Shown: one piece after another, positions 7,419 to 41,925 of the stretch
Position numbering within the stretch: position 1 is the first letter of the stretch
Layout: each line of letters begins with the position of its first letter
Assembly: GCA_947504705.1 (NCBI GenBank)
Contig: CANNIA010000031.1
Coordinates: forward strand, 1-41,925
Direction: 5' to 3'
DNA: 41,925 nucleotides
Source of the DNA: Paracoccaceae bacterium
Lineage (GTDB): Bacteria > Pseudomonadota > Alphaproteobacteria > Rhodobacterales > Rhodobacteraceae
Program-made: the position numbers and the translations under genes
The notes under the pieces: model-generated
What the model was told of the DNA's origin: nothing
The model's input: only the letters and a program-made list of their open reading frames with translations
The model's database searches: none

Positions 7419-8060
7419 CTAGCTGGGTTTCGAGAGATAGCTCTTTCGTGCCCGGAATTCCGATACGGAGTTGCCGTTCGGGAATGGTTGATCCGGAACC
7501 GAAACTCCCAGAAACGCGCACAAGGGGCCCCAACCTTCGCGCACATTCATCGCCAGAAGCCTTTTTGGCGGAATTCCCGCGATCACGGCTTTGCGGTGGT
7601 CTTCGAACCGCTGCAGCGCAAAGTCGCGGTCGGTGATCCGGCCCTGGAAGATGCCCTCCAGTGCCACTTTCCGGATCAGGGCCGATCCGGCGCGGCCATT
7701 CGGATCGGGGTCAACCTCTGCACCCAGCGTTGCCGAGGGCACAATGGTTTCCAGCATGCTGTCATACCACTTTGACGGATCGCGCACCGACAGGATCACC
7801 TTGGCTCGCGGGAAATGCGCCGTGATCTCGCGCCAGTAGGCCGAGGCAGGCCAGTCGACCGTGCTGTCGTAGCCGTCGAACACCGTGTCCCAGTCAGCGG
7901 GTCCGCCATCGGCAATAGCCTGCCAGATTGCGGTCAGCCGGGGATCGCGGCGCAGTTCGTACATGTGGTGGCAGGGGCCAAAACCCAGCATCTCGATTGC
8001 CCGTTGCAGCGATTGCGTGCCGGTGCGGCCGAACCCTGCGCCGATGATCTTCAAGCCCAT
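7419..8060 (-). CDS. Sulfotransferase-family P-loop protein
   Basis: About 213 residues. The N-terminus K-I-I-G-A-G-F-G-R-T-G-T-Q-S-L is the phosphosulfate-binding loop of a bacterial sulfotransferase subfamily that begins directly with this motif. V-I-L-S-V-R-D-P-S-K-W-Y follows, a typical 3'-phosphate-binding strand and helix. These proteins move sulfate from PAPS to an acceptor, and some relatives act on other substrates; the acceptor here is unknown. The ATG is chosen because the P-loop starts five residues later and GGACGGG precedes it. A longer form adding 19 basic residues is possible. It converges with pobA. Confidence 0.75.
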   Translation of the reverse strand: MGLKIIGAGFGRTGTQSLQRAIEMLGFGPCHHMYELRRDPRLTAIWQAIADGGPADWDTVFDGYDSTVDWPASAYWREITAHFPRAKVILSVRDPSKWYDSMLETIVPSATLGAEVDPDPNGRAGSALIRKVALEGIFQGRITDRDFALQRFEDHRKAVIAGIPPKRLLAMNVREGWGPLCAFLGVSVPDQPFPNGNSVSEFRARKSYLSKPS

Positions 8061-19255: not shown

Positions 19256-20110
19256 TTACGCGCCGGTTGCGACCTTCAGGTCGTCGTACATGCCCCATTC
19301 GGCCCAGGAGCCGTCATAAAGCGCGTGGTTGCGGTGGCCCATCCGTTCCAGCGCCAAGGACAGCACCGCCGCCGTGACGCCTGACCCGCAAGAGGTAATC
19401 GCGGGCTTCTTCAGATTGACCCCCGCCGCCTCGAACACGGCCTTCAGGTCCGCCGGGGATTTCATCGTGCCATCCGCATTCAGCACTTCGCCGATGGGAA
19501 TGTTCTTCGACCCCGGAATATGGCCGGACCGCAGACCGGGACGTGGTTCCGCCGCCTCACCCCGGAACCGCGCGGCAGGGCGGGCATCGATGATCTCGGC
19601 CTCACCCAGCTTTGCCGCGTGGGCGACTTGCGTCACGTCCTTGACCATCTGGTTCTGGCGCGAAACGGTCATGTGGCGGTCGCGGACGATCGGGGCCATA
19701 TCCTCGATCTCGCGGCCCTCGGCCTGCCATTTCGGCAAACCGCCGTCCAGCACGGCCACATCGGTCTTGCCCATCAGCCGAAAGGTCCACCAGACCCGCG
19801 CCGCGCTGAACAGACCCGCGCCGTCATAGACGACCACCTGATGCCCGTCACCCACGCCCATCGCCCGCATACGGGAGATGAATTTCTCGGGCGGGGGGGC
19901 CATGTGCGGCAGGTTAGACCGTTGATCCGAAATCTCGTCAATGTCGAAGAACCGCGCGCCGGGGATATGGGCGGCCTCGTACTCGGCCTTCGCGTCGCGG
20001 GCCATGGCGGGCAGATACCAGCTGGCATCCAGCACCCGCAGATCAGGATCGCGCAGATGCTTGGCCAACCATTCGGTCGAGACCAGCGTCTTGGGGTCAT
20101 CTTCGGCCAT
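19256..20110 (-). CDS. sseA: 3-mercaptopyruvate sulfurtransferase (two-domain rhodanese)
   Basis: 284 residues with two rhodanese domains. The first has R-V-L-D-A-S-W-Y and H-I-P-G-A-R-F-F-D-I-D. The second carries H-I-P-G-S-K-N-I-P and the active-site loop S-C-G-S-G-V-T-A, which is the mercaptopyruvate-type loop (C-G-S-G-V-T) rather than the thiosulfate type (C-R-K-G-V-T). The start is placed at ATG after GGGAGGGATTC. It heads the sseA-tyrB-transporter-CoA-transferase run, and pairing a mercaptopyruvate enzyme with an aminotransferase fits cysteine breakdown through transamination. Confidence 0.9.
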   Translation of the reverse strand: MAEDDPKTLVSTEWLAKHLRDPDLRVLDASWYLPAMARDAKAEYEAAHIPGARFFDIDEISDQRSNLPHMAPPPEKFISRMRAMGVGDGHQVVVYDGAGLFSAARVWWTFRLMGKTDVAVLDGGLPKWQAEGREIEDMAPIVRDRHMTVSRQNQMVKDVTQVAHAAKLGEAEIIDARPAARFRGEAAEPRPGLRSGHIPGSKNIPIGEVLNADGTMKSPADLKAVFEAAGVNLKKPAITSCGSGVTAAVLSLALERMGHRNHALYDGSWAEWGMYDDLKVATGA

Positions 20111-20188
20111 GAATCCCTCCCGTTCTTTGATCTTCACCTAGCCCGCCACCCCCTTGCGCGCAAGAGTGGCAAGGCTAACCTGTGGCCC

Positions 20189-21604
20189 ATGCAGAACACA
20201 TCCCCCCTCTCCGCCCTGATCGACAGCCATGCACCCGACCTGACCGGCATGGCCGACCGGGTCTGGGCCACGCCGGAACTTCTGTATGCCGAATTCGCCA
20301 GTGTGGCCGAACACACTGCGATGCTGCGGCAGAAGGGCCTTCGCGTTACGGAAGACGTGGCAGGCATCCCCACCGCCGTGATGGGCGAGGCGGGTGCGGG
20401 TGGCCCCCTTATCGCGATCCTTGGCGAATATGATGCGCTGCCGGGCCTTTCGCAGGTTGCTGGCATTGCCGAGCCCCGACCCTTGACACCCAATGGCAAC
20501 GGCCACGGCTGTGGTCACAACTTGCTGGGGTCAGGCGCAATGCTTGCCGCCTGCGCCTTGAAGGATTGGCTGGATCAGACCGGCACCCCGGGCCGCGTGC
20601 GTTACTACGGCTGCCCGGCCGAAGAAGGCGGTGCCGCCAAGGCCTTCATGGTCCGCGATGGCGCATTTCAGGGCGTGGATGCCGCCATCACCTGGCACCC
20701 CGACAGCCTGACCCGGGTCGATGACCCGCTTAGCCTTGCCAACACACGCGCCGATTTCACCTTTACCGGCAAGGCCAGCCACGCCGCCGCCTCACCCCAT
20801 CTGGGCCGCTCCGCCCTGGACGCGGTGGAACTGACAAGCGTCGGCGTCAACTACCTGCGCGAACATGTGCCGCAGGATGCCCGCATCCACTACGCCTATC
20901 TCGATGCCGGTGGCCCCGCCCCAAACGTCGTGCAGGCCAGCGCCAAGGTCCGCTATTCGATCCGGGCGCTCAATCTTTCGACCATGCTGGACCTTGTCGA
21001 TCGCGTGCATAACGTCGCCAAAGGTGCCGCGCTGATGACCGACACCAAGGTCGAGATGCGCGTCTTTTCCGCCGTGTCGAACATGCTGGGCAACGAGGTT
21101 CTGGAACACTTGATGCAAGAAGTGCTGGACAACCTTGGCGGCGTCCCCTTCGACGACAACGATGTTGCCTATGCCAGCGCCATTCAAGCAACCCTTACGG
21201 CCGAGGAAATCAGCCAACCCTTCCGCCGCGCCGGGGTTCCAGTGCGCGCCGAGCCGCTTTGCGACTGGATCGTGCCGCGCAAACAGGCGGGTGAGGTGAT
21301 GATCGGGTCAACCGATGTGGCCGATGTATCCTGGGCCGTGCCCTTGGTGCAGCTTCTGACCGCAACGCTAGCCATCGGCACTCCGTTCCACACATGGCAG
21401 GTCACAGCGCAGGGCAAGACCCCAGCGGCGCATAAGGGCATGACCCACGCCGCCCGCGCCATGGCGATCTGCGCCCAGCGCCTGTTCACCGATGCGGGTC
21501 TGCTGAATGCGGCGAAAGCCGAACACGCCGCCCGCCTCAAGGCCGAGCCCTACCGCTGCCCGATCCCATCAGATGTCCAGCCGCCGCTGGTGCCCCGGCC
21601 TTAA
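20189..21604 (+). CDS. M20-family amidohydrolase (AbgB-like)
   Basis: 471 residues. Metal-site motifs of the M20 amidohydrolases: G-E-Y-D-A-L-P-G, G-N-G-H-G-C-G-H-N-L-L-G, C-P-A-E-E-G-G, and a late A-H-K-G-M-T-H-A region. The central lid domain contains K-A-S-H-A-A-A-S-P-H-L-G-R. The arrangement resembles p-aminobenzoyl-glutamate hydrolase subunit B, which cleaves an amide from aromatic-acylated amino acids. No AbgA partner is adjacent. The ATG start gives a sensible N-terminus (MQNTSPLSALIDSH). It is divergent from sseA with only 78 bases between. Confidence 0.85.
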   Translation: MQNTSPLSALIDSHAPDLTGMADRVWATPELLYAEFASVAEHTAMLRQKGLRVTEDVAGIPTAVMGEAGAGGPLIAILGEYDALPGLSQVAGIAEPRPLTPNGNGHGCGHNLLGSGAMLAACALKDWLDQTGTPGRVRYYGCPAEEGGAAKAFMVRDGAFQGVDAAITWHPDSLTRVDDPLSLANTRADFTFTGKASHAAASPHLGRSALDAVELTSVGVNYLREHVPQDARIHYAYLDAGGPAPNVVQASAKVRYSIRALNLSTMLDLVDRVHNVAKGAALMTDTKVEMRVFSAVSNMLGNEVLEHLMQEVLDNLGGVPFDDNDVAYASAIQATLTAEEISQPFRRAGVPVRAEPLCDWIVPRKQAGEVMIGSTDVADVSWAVPLVQLLTATLAIGTPFHTWQVTAQGKTPAAHKGMTHAARAMAICAQRLFTDAGLLNAAKAEHAARLKAEPYRCPIPSDVQPPLVPRP

Positions 21605-35413: not shown

Positions 35414-36623
<1,210 letters not shown>

Positions 36624-38079: not shown

Positions 38080-38370
38080 ATGAAAAGACTAACTCTTGTT
38101 GCCGCCGTGATGCTGGCATTTGCCGGGCCTGTCGCTGCGGAGTGCTATGCCGACTATAAGGCAAAGCGTGACGAACCGCTGAATCTGGCGTACGGTGTGG
38201 CTCAGGTGTCGGACGCGAACTGTTCGCCCAGTGCCGCCGAAGGTGAACTGGCGCCCCGGTTGGCCAGCGATGGCTGGACGCTTCTGAACGTCCTGTCCAC
38301 ATTCGGGCCTGAGGGGCTTGAAGAAAGAAAAGCGAGTGCCAGTGCCGCCGACCACTTCCTCCGTTACTGA
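38080..38370 (+). CDS. Small secreted protein, unknown
   Basis: 96 residues. A clear signal peptide (M-K-R-L-T-L-V-A-A-V-M-L-A-F-A-G-P-V-A-A) precedes E-C-Y-A-D-Y-K-A-K-R-D-E-P-L-N-L-A-Y-G-V, with a second cysteine in A-N-C-S, then G-W-T-L-L-N-V-L-S-T-F-G and the end H-F-L-R-Y. The two cysteines could pair in the periplasm. The overall pattern looks like a conserved small protein of this bacterial group. The ATG follows a GGAG at 9-12 bases. Its last 53 bases overlap the next gene, so they are translated together. Confidence 0.75.
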   Translation: MKRLTLVAAVMLAFAGPVAAECYADYKAKRDEPLNLAYGVAQVSDANCSPSAAEGELAPRLASDGWTLLNVLSTFGPEGLEERKASASAADHFLRY

Positions 38371-39046
38371 CAGTCTGAAGGCGGGTAACCGCGTTGTAGC
38401 CTATGGAATTGGCGCTATCGTCGTGATCCTGCTGGGCGCGGCGTTTCTGTTGTTCCTGAACCTGCCGGATGCAAACGCGTTCAACGCGCGGGTCGAGCAG
38501 ATCTTTGTCGAGAACAACGATTTGACCACCGAGTCAGAGATCAAGCTGCTGGAGATTCTGGCGCAGTCGGGAACATCGTTTTCCGAGGTGCTGATCAGCT
38601 ATCGGTCGGTGATCTTTGTGCTGCTGGTCTTTTCGACCGCGCTTCTGATCGCGGCACTGGTGTTTCTAGTGATGATCATCGCACTGAACCGCCGAATCTC
38701 GGCCATTCAGCGGTCGGGCATTCAGGTGGCCAGCCTGATGATCAGCCGCGAGTCGCGGGCGGTCTATATCAACGATCTGGAATTTCAGCTGACTGAAGCC
38801 GCGCTGGAAACGCTGTCGGTTCTGGCCGAAGCGCGGATGGACGACGAGGTTCTGACCGGGGTTCAGATCGAATCGGTGATCTCGGGACGGGCCGAGGCGG
38901 ATTGCGACGAAGCCGCCGGGGCGACGCGGGTGAAACGGTTGCGCGATGCCTTGGGTAACCAGCTTGTCAGCGAGCTTTTGGTCAAGACCATCGCCCGGCG
39001 CGGCTATGTGCTGGCGGTGGGCAAGGACACCATCCGGATGATCTGA
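38318..39046 (+). CDS. Membrane-anchored winged-helix (OmpR-type) protein
   Basis: 242 residues. Two hydrophobic helices (about 27-49 and 97-123) enclose a roughly 45-residue loop, placing both ends in the cytoplasm. The C-terminal 90 residues look like an OmpR-type winged helix: F-Q-L-T-E-A-A-L-E-T-L-S-V-L-A, V-K-R-L-R-D-A-L-G, then L-V-K-T-I-A-R-R-G-Y-V-L-A-V, the terminal wing pattern. This is a ToxR-like membrane regulator with the DNA-binding part at the opposite end. I chose a TTG start behind GAGGGG, inside the upstream gene. It may read the state of its secreted neighbour. Confidence 0.7.
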   Translation: MKKEKRVPVPPTTSSVTDSLKAGNRVVAYGIGAIVVILLGAAFLLFLNLPDANAFNARVEQIFVENNDLTTESEIKLLEILAQSGTSFSEVLISYRSVIFVLLVFSTALLIAALVFLVMIIALNRRISAIQRSGIQVASLMISRESRAVYINDLEFQLTEAALETLSVLAEARMDDEVLTGVQIESVISGRAEADCDEAAGATRVKRLRDALGNQLVSELLVKTIARRGYVLAVGKDTIRMI

Positions 39047-39083: not shown

Positions 39084-39091
39084 GCTGTGGG

Positions 39092-39138
39092 TGGTGAGCC
39101 GGACAGGATTCGAACCTGTGACCCGCTGATTAAAAGTC
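39092..39138 (-). other. Attachment site: 3' part of tRNA-Lys(UUU)
   Basis: Read on the minus strand this holds the anticodon loop CTTTTAA (anticodon UUU), the variable region, the T-arm ACAGG-TTCGAAT-CCTGT and the acceptor strand ending CCGGCTCACCA. That is the last 47 bases of a tRNA-Lys. The 5' half is not present next to it: upstream bases do not form the acceptor GAGCCGG or the full anticodon stem. An integrase gene starts 75 bases away. So this is the left attachment core left by island insertion. The intact tRNA should be at the far end of the island. Confidence 0.8.
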
Positions 39139-39212
39139 TTCGGTAGCATGTTTTATACCAATAGGTTACAAGGTAGTTTATACATCGCCTTTATAACTAA
39201 CGGGGTGGAATC

Positions 39213-40415
39213 ATGGCCCAAACACCTTCAGCGATTAAGCTCTACAAAGGCCTTTCCATCTACCGGGTAGCCAATTCTTCGCTCTGGTATGTCCGAGTGT
39301 GGGACAGACGGACCAAGAAATACATTGTGAAATCAACGGGGATGGACACGTCGATCAAAGCTCGGGACGTGGCTCAGGAACTCGCTCTAAGCCTTCTCAA
39401 GGCCGAGAAGGTCGTTGAACGGGAATTCACGTTTAGGCATTTCGCTCTCAAACTGCTGCACAAATCCAGACTTCTGTCGGCGGCAGGGGAACGAAGCAGC
39501 GGCTACACACGAGCCATCCACTGGGCTGTGCAGAACGAGGACTGGGGTCTGTTACGTTGGTTCGGCGACAAGGATATTCGGCAGATCAAGACCGTCTCTT
39601 ACCAAGAGTACATCGCAGACCTCACCAAGAAGCGCCCTGACATCACTGCATCTACGAAAAACACGCTCATGGCTGCCTTTCGGAACGTGTTGAAGATAGC
39701 AAGGGATGAGGGTGTTATTGATGTGGTCCCGGCCACACCTCGCACAAAGGCCAAGGACAATCCCCGACCGTTCTTCCGCTTCCATCCGCTGGTATCGAAG
39801 GACAATGACGCCTACCAGAAGCTCTTGAAGACAGCCAAGAAGATGGCAGAATCCTCAGTGGAGGTTCGAGGACACAAGATCACCGACGAACTCTACGACG
39901 TGATCCTCTTCTTGACCCACTCCTTCGTCAGACCCATCACAACTGAACTCTATGCGATCCGTCACAGCGACATAACCATCGCAAATGATCCAAGACGGCT
40001 GATCGTCACAGTGAGAGACGGCAAAACTGGATACAGGGCCGCCAATACCATGGAAGCTGCTGTGTCGGTTTACGAGCGCATCAAGAAGCGCAACCCAAGT
40101 GCTTTACCGGAAGACTTCATCTTCCTACCCGGCTACCAAAACCGAATGACCGCTTCGAAGATCATTCAACGGCAGTTCCATGCACTCATGGAGGAAGCAG
40201 ACCTTCAGGTCGACCGCAACACAGGGAACGCCCACACCCTGTACTCCCTGCGCCATACAGCCATCTGTATGAGGATCATCAACAGCGAAGGGAAAGTGAA
40301 CATCTTCAACCTTGCCAAGAACGCTGGGACATCAGTCGACCAGATTGAACGCTTCTATGCGCGGTTCCTTCCCCTATCACCGGAGATGGCCAGGAACCTT
40401 CAGACCTTCGCTTAG
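39213..40415 (+). CDS. Tyrosine recombinase (island integrase)
   Basis: 400 residues. An N-terminal arm-binding part is followed by a core-binding helical domain (about 80-185) and the catalytic domain. Catalytic residues appear as F-V-R-P-I-T-T-E-L-Y-A-I-R (box I Arg), Y-S-L-R-H-T-A-I (box II Arg and His) and I-E-R-F-Y-A-R-F, with the nucleophilic Tyr near residue 385. It cuts and rejoins att sites, here at tRNA-Lys directly behind it. The start ATG follows GGGTGG. Base use is less GC-rich than the core genes, consistent with transfer. Confidence 0.9.
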   Translation: MAQTPSAIKLYKGLSIYRVANSSLWYVRVWDRRTKKYIVKSTGMDTSIKARDVAQELALSLLKAEKVVEREFTFRHFALKLLHKSRLLSAAGERSSGYTRAIHWAVQNEDWGLLRWFGDKDIRQIKTVSYQEYIADLTKKRPDITASTKNTLMAAFRNVLKIARDEGVIDVVPATPRTKAKDNPRPFFRFHPLVSKDNDAYQKLLKTAKKMAESSVEVRGHKITDELYDVILFLTHSFVRPITTELYAIRHSDITIANDPRRLIVTVRDGKTGYRAANTMEAAVSVYERIKKRNPSALPEDFIFLPGYQNRMTASKIIQRQFHALMEEADLQVDRNTGNAHTLYSLRHTAICMRIINSEGKVNIFNLAKNAGTSVDQIERFYARFLPLSPEMARNLQTFA

Positions 40416-40519
40416 GTGACTTTTGTGTTGCCTCTTCGGAACGACCGAGAGCAACCCAGCTATCGCTGAAAACCGCGGAGCCGTTGCCGTCCCCTTCAGT
40501 ATCTTCACCCAAGCCTCCC

Positions 40520-40569
40520 AAAATAGTAAATGTTGTATATGGGTGTGAGAGGCGAACATTTACTATTTT
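40520..40569. terminator. Large perfect inverted repeat between integrase and DUF3768 gene
   Basis: Arms of 15 bases, AAAATAGTAAATGTT and AACATTTACTATTTT, are perfect and separated by 20 bases. Both ends finish in T- or A-runs, so it can act as a terminator from either side, between two convergent genes. It could also be a binding site of an island regulator. The flanking 200-base gap holds no gene I can support. Confidence 0.6.
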
Positions 40570-40625
40570 TCGGTCTGTTTTCAATTATTTGCAAGGAATG
40601 AGGACGAGGTCAAGCCGTGTCGCCA

Positions 40626-40967
40626 CTAGTACTCCCACGCCAACATGAGTGTCAGCACACGGACGGTCACCTCGGGATCGGCTGGGTTCTCTGACCCTGA
40701 CGTAAGTGAACGGTCGTAGTAGTCGAACTTCCAGAAAATGGTTTCTCCCTTGTGCAGGAGTGTTCCAAAGTCGTGTTCGCCGTGCGGGTCGTTGTCTTCC
40801 GTGAACGTGTCGAAGGTTGCCACTTTGTGCAGGATCGCAGCGATGTCATTCAGCGCCTGGATCCCTTGCGTGACCATGACACGGCATCCAAGCAAGGTTG
40901 ATCGCGCCCTGTCGTTCAGCTCCCGGATGCTAGTATGATCCTCCATCCAGCCCTCTACATCCGACAT
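40626..40967 (-). CDS. DUF3768-family protein
   Basis: 113 residues. Motifs: I-R-E-L-N-D-R-A-R near the start, G-C-R-V-M-V-T-Q-G-I-Q-A-L, F-T-E-D-N-D-P-H-G-E-H-D-F-G, F-W-K-F-D-Y-Y-D, then G-S-E-N-P-A-D-P and V-L-T-L-M-L-A-W-E-Y at the end. This is the pattern of DUF3768, a family frequent on alphaproteobacterial plasmids and islands with unknown function. Start at ATG before S-D-V-E-G-W, overlapping a possible upstream small gene. Its presence fits mobile DNA rather than the host core. Confidence 0.8.
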   Translation of the reverse strand: MSDVEGWMEDHTSIRELNDRARSTLLGCRVMVTQGIQALNDIAAILHKVATFDTFTEDNDPHGEHDFGTLLHKGETIFWKFDYYDRSLTSGSENPADPEVTVRVLTLMLAWEY

Positions 40968-41106
40968 CAAAGATGTTCCTGATCCTGAACAAACCTCGTT
41001 CGTTCAACAGGATACGGAGCGGGAGGTCGCAGTCCGTCAAGGTGTGGCCATCCCCGCATCTGTTGCAAAAGTCAACACGCACGGGCGACCAAGACGGATT
41101 GACCAT
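40930..41106 (-). CDS. Possible small cysteine-containing protein
   Basis: 58 residues from an ATG before V-N-P-S-W-S-P. The segment F-C-N-R-C-G-D-G-H-T-L-T-D-C-D-L-P-L-R-I-L has C-x2-C and a third cysteine, like a small zinc-finger. It overlaps the start of the DUF3768 gene by about 40 bases, as in translationally coupled pairs, and is divergent from dndC. An ATG 75 bases upstream would run into the dndC start. Evidence is weak beyond the motif; it may be a chance frame. Confidence 0.35.
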   Translation of the reverse strand: MVNPSWSPVRVDFCNRCGDGHTLTDCDLPLRILLNERGLFRIRNIFDVGCRGLDGGSY

Positions 41107-41160
41107 CTGACCACGAGTTGACACAGTAGCGAACAAAAACAGAAACGAGCGCCGCCACCC

Positions 41161-41777
41161 ATGGACGACCTCAGACTTCACGACTTCTCCGACGTTTCGC
41201 TCGAAGATGCGATTGACATCATCCAGTCCGAAATTCGAGACGAGTACCTACAACCCCACTCATATCCGTGGATCATCGGCTACTCGGGTGGGAAAGACAG
41301 CACCCTTGTAACGCATCTCGTTTTCAACGTGCTGCTTTCGCTACCAAGAAGCCAGAGAAAACGAGAAGTGCACATTGTATCGAACGATACACTTGTAGAG
41401 AGTCCTTTAGTTATCAAACACATAGTGGATAGCTTAGAACAAATCCGCGAGGCTGCGGATACACTGCGCCTTCCGGTTAGAACAGAGATCACTCGACCTG
41501 CACTCTCACAAACTTTCTGGGTGAACCTGATCGGACGAGGCTATCCTTCCCCGAACCGTACATTCCGCTGGTGCACGGATCGAATGAAGATCCTCCCCAC
41601 TAGCGCATACATCAAAGCGCGAACAGACGAAGCCGAAAGGGTTATCCTTTTGCTGGGTGTTCGTCGAAGTGAGTCAGCCACCCGCGCTGCGTCGGTTAAG
41701 CGTTACGACAATGGTGAGAGGCTAAACAGGCATAACGATCTCGCCGGGTGCTTGGTCTTTCGACCTATCGTTGAACT
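41161..41777 (+). pseudogene. dndC: DNA phosphorothioation protein DndC, truncated by an insertion sequence
   Basis: About 205 residues are readable, less than half the usual length. Seen: I-I-G-Y-S-G-G-K-D-S-T near residue 42, the ATP pyrophosphatase loop of the PAPS-reductase-like DndC, V-S-N-D-T-L-V-E-S-P, N-R-T-F-R-W-C-T-D-R-M-K-I, L-L-G-V-R-R-S-E-S, and C-L-V-F-R-P-I-V-E-L, where similarity stops. Known: DndC joins DndA/IscS, DndD and DndE to replace a backbone oxygen by sulfur. The frame then runs into foreign DNA starting TGTCCGTCG. No dndB precedes it. The ribosome site is weak. Function is probably lost. Confidence 0.85.
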
Positions 41778-41925
41778 TGTCCGTCGTCGAATGATTTGGA
41801 ACAGGCGGCCTAATTCTGGAGCGGATCGTTCGGGCTCATCGGGTTCAGGTTATGCTGCTTGACGCTGATGGTTCAAGCGGCGGTTTTGGATGGTTTCCAG
41901 TTTGATGCGTCTCCTTTCGGCCAGA
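41778..41925 (-). mobile_element. Partial insertion sequence inserted into dndC (right terminal part)
   Basis: The sequence from TGTCCGTCGTCGAATG onward is unrelated to DndC and begins at the exact point where DndC similarity ends. It starts with TG, as many IS ends do. About 75 bases in, a minus-strand reading frame ends, as expected for the 3' end of a transposase gene near an IS terminus. The family was not recognised. The other end, and any target duplication, lie right of the window. Confidence 0.6.
41850..41925 (-). CDS. C-terminal fragment of a probable transposase (window edge)
   Basis: The last 24 residues before a TAA read L-A-E-R-R-R-I-K-L-E-T-I-Q-N-R-R-L-N-H-Q-R-Q-A-A. The basic, helical end is plausible for a transposase, and the position, reading toward the IS end inside dndC, supports it. 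The fragment is too short to name a family, and a longer view is needed to tell it from a passenger gene. Confidence 0.4.
   Translation of the reverse strand, partial: LAERRRIKLETIQNRRLNHQRQAA

Follow-up and report, generated by a model that had tools for sequence, protein, structure and literature searches.

A DNA phosphorothioation (dnd) island at tRNA-Lys, broken by an insertion sequence, in a Paracoccaceae bacterium

Does the right end of contig CANNIA010000031.1 of a Paracoccaceae bacterium (GCA_947504705.1) carry a DNA phosphorothioation (dnd) system that could still be completed, or only what is left of one? The window, meaning the whole stretch of DNA that was analysed, is this contig (C31, 41,925 nt), which belongs to an assembly of 3.72 Mb in 87 contigs, with a completeness of 99.9%. 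Near its right end, a 3' piece of tRNA-Lys is followed by an integrase gene and by the start of dndC, which stops at the terminus of an insertion sequence (IS). An earlier note, made from the letters of the window, had described a dnd island at tRNA-Lys broken by an IS, and both the sequence and the relatives support this description. The reading favoured here, at a probability of about 0.86, is that the IS broke dndC, that the rest of the module was deleted or broken again, and that no phosphorothioation takes place. The locus looks like a defence island that is dead rather than complete and silenced, and like an ordinary relic of a known kind. The features on which the argument turns are the following.

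38318-39046, plus strand: chromosomal gene left of the island, an open reading frame (ORF) of 242 amino acids (aa) with a TTG start; NCBIfam matches only weak, response-regulator-like
39091-39138, minus strand: left attachment repeat (attL), the 3' portion of tRNA-Lys(TTT), anticodon loop through 3' end; exact 48-bp direct repeat of C7:783-830
39213-40415, plus strand: tyrosine recombinase (island integrase), 400 aa; matched by PHROGs phrog_1 'integrase', E=1.1e-18
41161-41777, plus strand: 5' part of dndC, 205 codons and 2 bases, recognized by TIGR03183, PADLOC and homology to Paracoccus ravus; cut by the IS
41778-41925, minus strand: one end of the IS, 148 bp, identical at contig ends; rve-type transposase, IS3-like
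41850-41924, minus strand: end of the IS transposase gene, 24 codons and a stop, from translation; resembles transposase tails in L010, L054 and L055

ARAGORN found no complete tRNA in the window, and an intact tRNA-Lys(ttt) at C7:784-859. The anticodon-side pattern, searched in the whole genome with one mismatch allowed at most, occurs at two sites, the window repeat and C7:807-831. On C7 the intact gene is followed by dapF (TIGR00652, 251 bits). The left flank of the island was matched in 40 of the 41 genomes searched, own genome included (E<=0.001), and the left-hand gene in all 24 same-genus relatives, at a DNA identity of 77-88%. The left gene, tRNA-Lys and dapF adjoin in 15 of the 19 same-genus loci fetched, 2-235 bp separating gene and tRNA; in three of the remaining four loci other DNA separates the two, and the fourth locus is divided between two contigs. 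The tRNA-Lys that lies between the left gene and dapF in relatives is the empty site. Because the 48-bp repeat is shared, the tRNA on C7 is intact and relatives have an empty site, the DNA running from window 39139 rightward to C7:782 leftward is an insertion in tRNA-Lys, the left end lying in the window and the right one where C7 starts. It features tRNA-derived terminal direct repeats, an empty site in relatives and an adjacent integrase, as tRNA-integrated islands do, and the GC content of its part of the window is 52%, versus 62% in the chromosomal part. The DNA found between left gene and tRNA-Lys in relatives L196-L202 was tried as the same island and rejected, as no integrase or dnd protein matched there and no second tRNA piece was seen. 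At the right end, another repeat, at positions 1-121 of C7 (L028), cuts the island, and these 121 bp recur close to contig ends in C62 and C81; we take this repeat to be the start of an IS5-type transposase.

The dndC stub covers positions 3-188 of the 447 in the TIGR03183 profile and scores 224 bits (E=2.5e-66); its truncation explains why it does not reach the cut-off of 290 set for full-length proteins. It also matches the PADLOC DndC model at E=3.2e-72. DndC matches were found in Paracoccus and Rhodobacter, and residues 1-207 of the stub are 86% identical to P. ravus DndC. Over 617 bases the two genes are 73% identical, with 31, 11 and 125 differences at first, second and third codon positions; 111 of the 205 codons differ synonymously and 28 nonsynonymously (dN = 0.099). 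The pattern is as for a gene that would have been under selection until recently. dndC ends with base 41777, and the first letters of the IS, TG, follow from 41778. The reading frame continues for 28 codons past the break, the first of them shared, to a stop at 41862. DndC relatives are encoded in 254 of 383 stretches from named genomes, and the best 80 of the 254 were compared, many of these loci being cut by contig ends. The 74 full-length proteins among the 80 feature six columns in which cysteine reaches at least 90%, five of them invariant. The stub keeps the PP-loop motif and two of the six cysteines, one invariant and one nearly so; the other four, all invariant, lie beyond the break, and the complete DndC expected of a Dnd system is accordingly missing from the window. 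The lost cysteines are presumably iron-sulphur ligands. DndC has been proposed to hold a [4Fe-4S] cluster, according to the available part of PMC2663466.

The IS occurs in multiple copies. Twelve contig ends (C31, C68 twice, C4, C7, C38, C47, C49, C56, C58, C59 and C80) carry the end seen in the window without a difference over 115-148 bp, five of them over all 148 bp, while two further copies, 86-87% identical, reside in C11 and C18. The same terminus is found with 14 different flanks, the window and 13 others. The opposite end was found exact at 8 contig ends and as one 94% copy within C22. By analogy with a related copy of ~1,509 bp in another genome (L056), the IS probably measures about 1.5 kb; its ends read TGTCC.. 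and ..AGACA, and matches were found in Thioclava and Paracoccus plasmids. A related full-length transposase features an rve domain (E=4.4e-20), a domain found there and not in the tail present in the window. An rve DDE transposase and multiple copies fit the IS3 family, a label that draws on Pfam domains and one plasmid annotation. The transposase is oriented against dndC. At paired IS copies, target-site repeats of 7 bp (C47/C45) and 9 bp (C7/C52, read by eye) were observed. Contig C68, 7.9 kb long, has the same IS end on both sides (1-148 and 7727-7874), in opposite orientation.

Most of what the earlier note had recognized in the window proved correct: the tRNA-Lys fragment is an exact copy of 48 bp of the intact gene on C7, the recombinase is confirmed by its PHROGs match and five invariant residues, the dndC start by TIGR03183, PADLOC and the identity to P. 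ravus, and the foreign sequence after dndC is the IS terminus that recurs at the 12 contig ends. Its limits needed adjusting, as the start it gave, 39092, falls one base inside the repeat, which begins at 39091, and only the final 148 bases belong to the IS.

Intact clusters in relatives tell what is missing. In the four nearest (P. ravus, Rb. viridis and two metagenome-assembled genomes), dndC is followed by an ORF of 66 aa, by dndD (691-693 aa) and by a gene for a protein of 514 aa. P. ravus DndD scores 262 bits with TIGR03185, above cut-off, and its 514-aa protein combines a DndE (PF08870) and a HerA-like (PF01935) domain; the part of the P. ravus cluster that corresponds to what follows the dndC break measures 4.4 kb. 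Among the best 80 dndC loci, DndD was found in 72, both parts of DndE-HerA in 49, the 66-aa ORF in 47, and the full order in 38.

None of this was found in the assembly, whose smallest contig is 3,114 bp, so that all statements of absence cover contigs of that size upward. TIGR03183 identified the window piece only, and no other half of dndC. TIGR03185 gave four weak matches, the best of 17 bits at positions 3-48, and weak matches of that kind occur also in 14 of 14 control genomes. When the 4.4 kb of dnd DNA from P. ravus was searched against the genome, window 41723-41777 matched, and nothing else did so better than E=0.3. A local tblastn search with dnd proteins of contigs C50-C87 (38 of 38, whole) and of parts of 7 larger ones gave a best E of 0.085. 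The DndD and DndE that a Dnd system requires are lacking at this contig size. C68, C78, C79, C80, C81, C83 and C85 were considered as inner island contigs and rejected: the GC content of the five measured is 0.60-0.63, and matches to dnd proteins or to the second recombinase of related elements do not exceed 25% identity.

The earlier note's expectations for the DNA beyond the window fared unevenly. Extension did lead to an intact tRNA-Lys and to the right end of the island, both on C7, and to the opposite IS end at 8 contig ends, none of which is a matched partner of the dndC insertion. Neither the rest of dndC nor dndD and dndE turned up in the assembly, and the note's condition, that the latter two follow intact, is not supported. 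With the cysteines lost and DndD and DndE lacking, the suggested silenced modification system gives way to a probably dead island. The idea that a restriction partner had to be lost too is weakened, since PADLOC detected no DndF, DndG or DndH in 10 further downstream ORFs of the four closest relatives; dndFGH elsewhere in the host were not searched for. Losing the modification would do harm only where a nuclease that depends on it is also present.

The history of the locus may be reconstructed as follows. A small integrative element entered the tRNA-Lys(TTT) gene through site-specific recombination in its anticodon loop, as the repeats and the empty site show, carrying a compact phosphorothioation module whose order, judging from relatives, was probably dndC, 66-aa ORF, dndD, dndE/HerA. 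A multi-copy IS with an IS3-type transposase then jumped into dndC after codon 205, at the junction seen in the window, and the rest of the module would have been lost by IS-mediated deletion or by a second break, as its absence suggests. Because the stub is devoid of four invariant cysteines and neither DndD nor DndE was found, the host is predicted to be one that should not phosphorothioate its DNA.

Some observations weigh against a dead module. No target-site repeat matching the dndC insertion was found among the 8 opposite IS ends, two 3-bp matches being attributed to chance, and simple insertion and deletion are therefore not distinguishable on this ground. The tblastn search of the genome with P. 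ravus DndD, negative at E<=1, had no positive control, and the absence of DndE-HerA from the genome was established at a strict threshold, E<=1e-30. The imbalance of IS ends, 12 versus 8, indicates that some IS-flanked contigs are missing from the assembly, and a dnd piece shorter than about 3 kb might lie on one of them. A simple IS insertion would leave the rest of dndC, dndD and dndE intact on contigs absent from the assembly. The excess of four transposase-3' IS ends, hence of missing partner contigs, speaks for it, as do the 31/11/125 differences from P. ravus dndC, which are those of a recently functional gene. We consider it unlikely all the same, for it has to accommodate a completeness of 99.9% and a genome in which no dnd gene was found elsewhere, and an intact dnd operon is very unlikely because the missing 4.4 kb exceed the smallest contig, and a further break would be needed.

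An assembly error was one objection that the earlier note had raised against itself, and a false dndC-IS junction, with dndC intact in the cell, would be favoured by the position of the contig end inside a multi-copy repeat, the usual site of assembly trouble. The junction coincides exactly with the IS terminus, which recurs beside 13 other flanks, 148 bp are assembled beyond it, and the downstream half of dndC was not found in the assembly; a chimera is accordingly most improbable. Hardly any weight is given, likewise, to an island that never had the full module and picked up a fragment of dndC. The lack of any other dnd gene in the genome would suit such an origin, which is at odds with a stub featuring start codon, frame and unbroken homology from residue 1 to the IS, and with relatives that carry the whole cluster, in one of which (L066) a homologous integrase (31-33%) lies upstream. 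Loss of a once complete module, following the IS insertion, remains the preferred explanation.

In the relatives, DndE and a HerA-type ATPase reside in one protein (L064:13443-14987 and homologues), its domains having been checked in L064 and L079. At E<=1e-30 this protein was found in 6 of 295 family-level genomes. The same-genus genome G001 matches only its residues 187-512. Nine of the 80 loci, all among the more distant ones (L102 onward), have a DndA match adjacent to dndC and in the same orientation; one more has it reversed, and another has a partial match elsewhere; no DndA match was seen beside dndC in L064-L095. In all four nearest relatives, a TusA-like ORF converges on the cluster, 8-18 bp past the dndE/HerA match.

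L064:14992-15264: TusA-like ORF, PF01206 E=1e-20
L065:14991-15218: TusA-like ORF
L066:14982-15203: TusA-like ORF
L067:14999-15241: TusA-like ORF

From its position, and with no DndA match there, the TusA-like carrier beside the dnd cluster is a possible sulphur donor. In two of the four, PD-T7-1-like and methyltransferase genes are found a few kb past the cluster (L065:17890-19302 and 19413-20468; L067:16622-19403). A DGQHR (DndB-like) protein of 381-415 aa is encoded downstream in 6 of the 38 loci compared, TIGR04172 confirming the one that was scanned. In the window, as the earlier note had correctly stated, no dndB lies between integrase and dndC: two ORFs were scanned in this interval, of which one features DUF3768 and the other has no match. 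This absence is no anomaly, because the DndB-like gene of those six relatives is downstream, not upstream. The first of the two ORFs is listed below.

40626-40970, minus strand: ORF with DUF3768, 114 aa; PF12599 E=4.7e-33

Disrupted clusters were met elsewhere. In Xanthomonas phaseoli (L136, 12541-13767) a Mutator-type transposase ORF is located inside dndD, and a dnd cluster broken by an IS is therefore not unique. In Tabrizicola thermarum (L080, 11317-11472) only DndD residues 1-52 were matched after dndC.

The 400-aa integrase has no match in NCBIfam, and one, below cut-off, in Pfam. Relatives of the integrase (E<=1e-10) were identified in 22 of the 295 family-level genomes, own included. 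In an alignment of 16 rows, made by 15 of these 22 genomes (own included) and L066, residues R240, K271, R347, H348 and Y382 are invariant; we take them to be the tyrosine-recombinase residue set. The five closest homologues (60-76%) each begin ~100 bp away from a displaced tRNA 3' piece truncated within the anticodon loop; four of these pieces resemble tRNA-Asn and one tRNA-Thr. The corresponding intact genes, tRNA-Asn(gtt) and tRNA-Thr(tgt), were located for two of the five. One element, in G291, closes on 45-bp repeats and measures ~16.5 kb (L227, G291:C31 1745-18258); another, in G066, closes on 46-bp repeats and measures ~4.6 kb. The G291 element carries HsdM, HsdS and HsdR, a PF03175 polymerase of 900 aa and a second recombinase, the G100 element an HsdM-like protein and HsdR. 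A small second recombinase is common to G100, G291 and G066 (59-80% identity), the L066 version being 30-38% identical. PF03175 was searched for in 18 of the 22 integrase genomes, and 6 were positive, with one match, below cut-off, in 14 control genomes; in three (G291, G254, G306) the polymerase lies on the contig of the integrase, 3-7 kb off. The L227 polymerase matched no PDB sequence at E<=0.01 (phmmer). The G291 element (L227) looks like a pipolin. The island was itself considered as a pipolin, given its att-like repeats at a tRNA gene, and rejected, as PF03175 has no match in its genome.

Members of the integrase family enter tRNA-Lys, tRNA-Asn and tRNA-Thr genes at the anticodon loop and come with differing defence cargo; the family looks like a carrier family overlapping with pipolins. 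It ties such cargoes together, dnd here and Type I restriction-modification in two sister elements. A bolder, rather doubtful view is that a pipolin-related carrier using tRNA anticodon loops brought a compact, nuclease-free Dnd system, with DndE fused to a HerA/FtsK translocase and TusA in place of DndA, which the IS has freshly killed here. If so, a defence made by modification plus translocase would work without DndFGH.

Known systems resemble the locus to different degrees. It shares with dnd modules a dndC recognized by TIGR03183 and PADLOC, and the nearest relative has a DndD above cut-off and the DndE domain PF08870; it differs in retaining only 205 dndC codons, and the relatives in the fusion of DndE to a HerA-type ATPase and in the lack of DndA beside dndC (L064-L095). 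The accessible parts of PMC4373003 and PMC2663466 give ample descriptions of dnd clusters that reside, together with integrases, on tRNA-linked islands, and note transposases in variable parts of such islands. The tRNA site, integrase, terminal direct repeats and atypical GC content are as in the dnd islands covered by that portion of PMC2663466, whereas the tRNA-Lys target, the integrase family and the broken cluster are not. As far as the available text of PMC7385651 goes, a tyrosine recombinase, att-like direct repeats and a tRNA site are found also in pipolins, and L227 (G291) combines the same integrase family with PolB and Type I restriction-modification; the difference is that this genome has no PF03175 match. 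The rve transposase, the TGTCC../..AGACA ends and several identical copies liken the IS to IS3-type elements, from which the 7- and 9-bp repeats at two pairable copies set it apart. DndABCDE are often decoupled from DndFGH, and DndH features a HerA/FtsK domain, according to the accessible sections of PMC10853773, which do not contain the phrase 'DndE fused'; the DndE-HerA fusion is not claimed as new. The window clearly illustrates the loss of a phosphorothioation island to an IS insertion, in keeping with the sporadic distribution and spread of dnd discussed in the available part of PMC8569181, and it points to an intact relative cluster featuring a DndE-HerA fusion and a neighbouring TusA.

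Outside the island, an ORF of 390 aa on the minus strand of the window (35414-36586) is matched by NF050803, a model of the CcrM adenine methyltransferase, at E=5e-190 and 631 bits, below the cut-off of 830.

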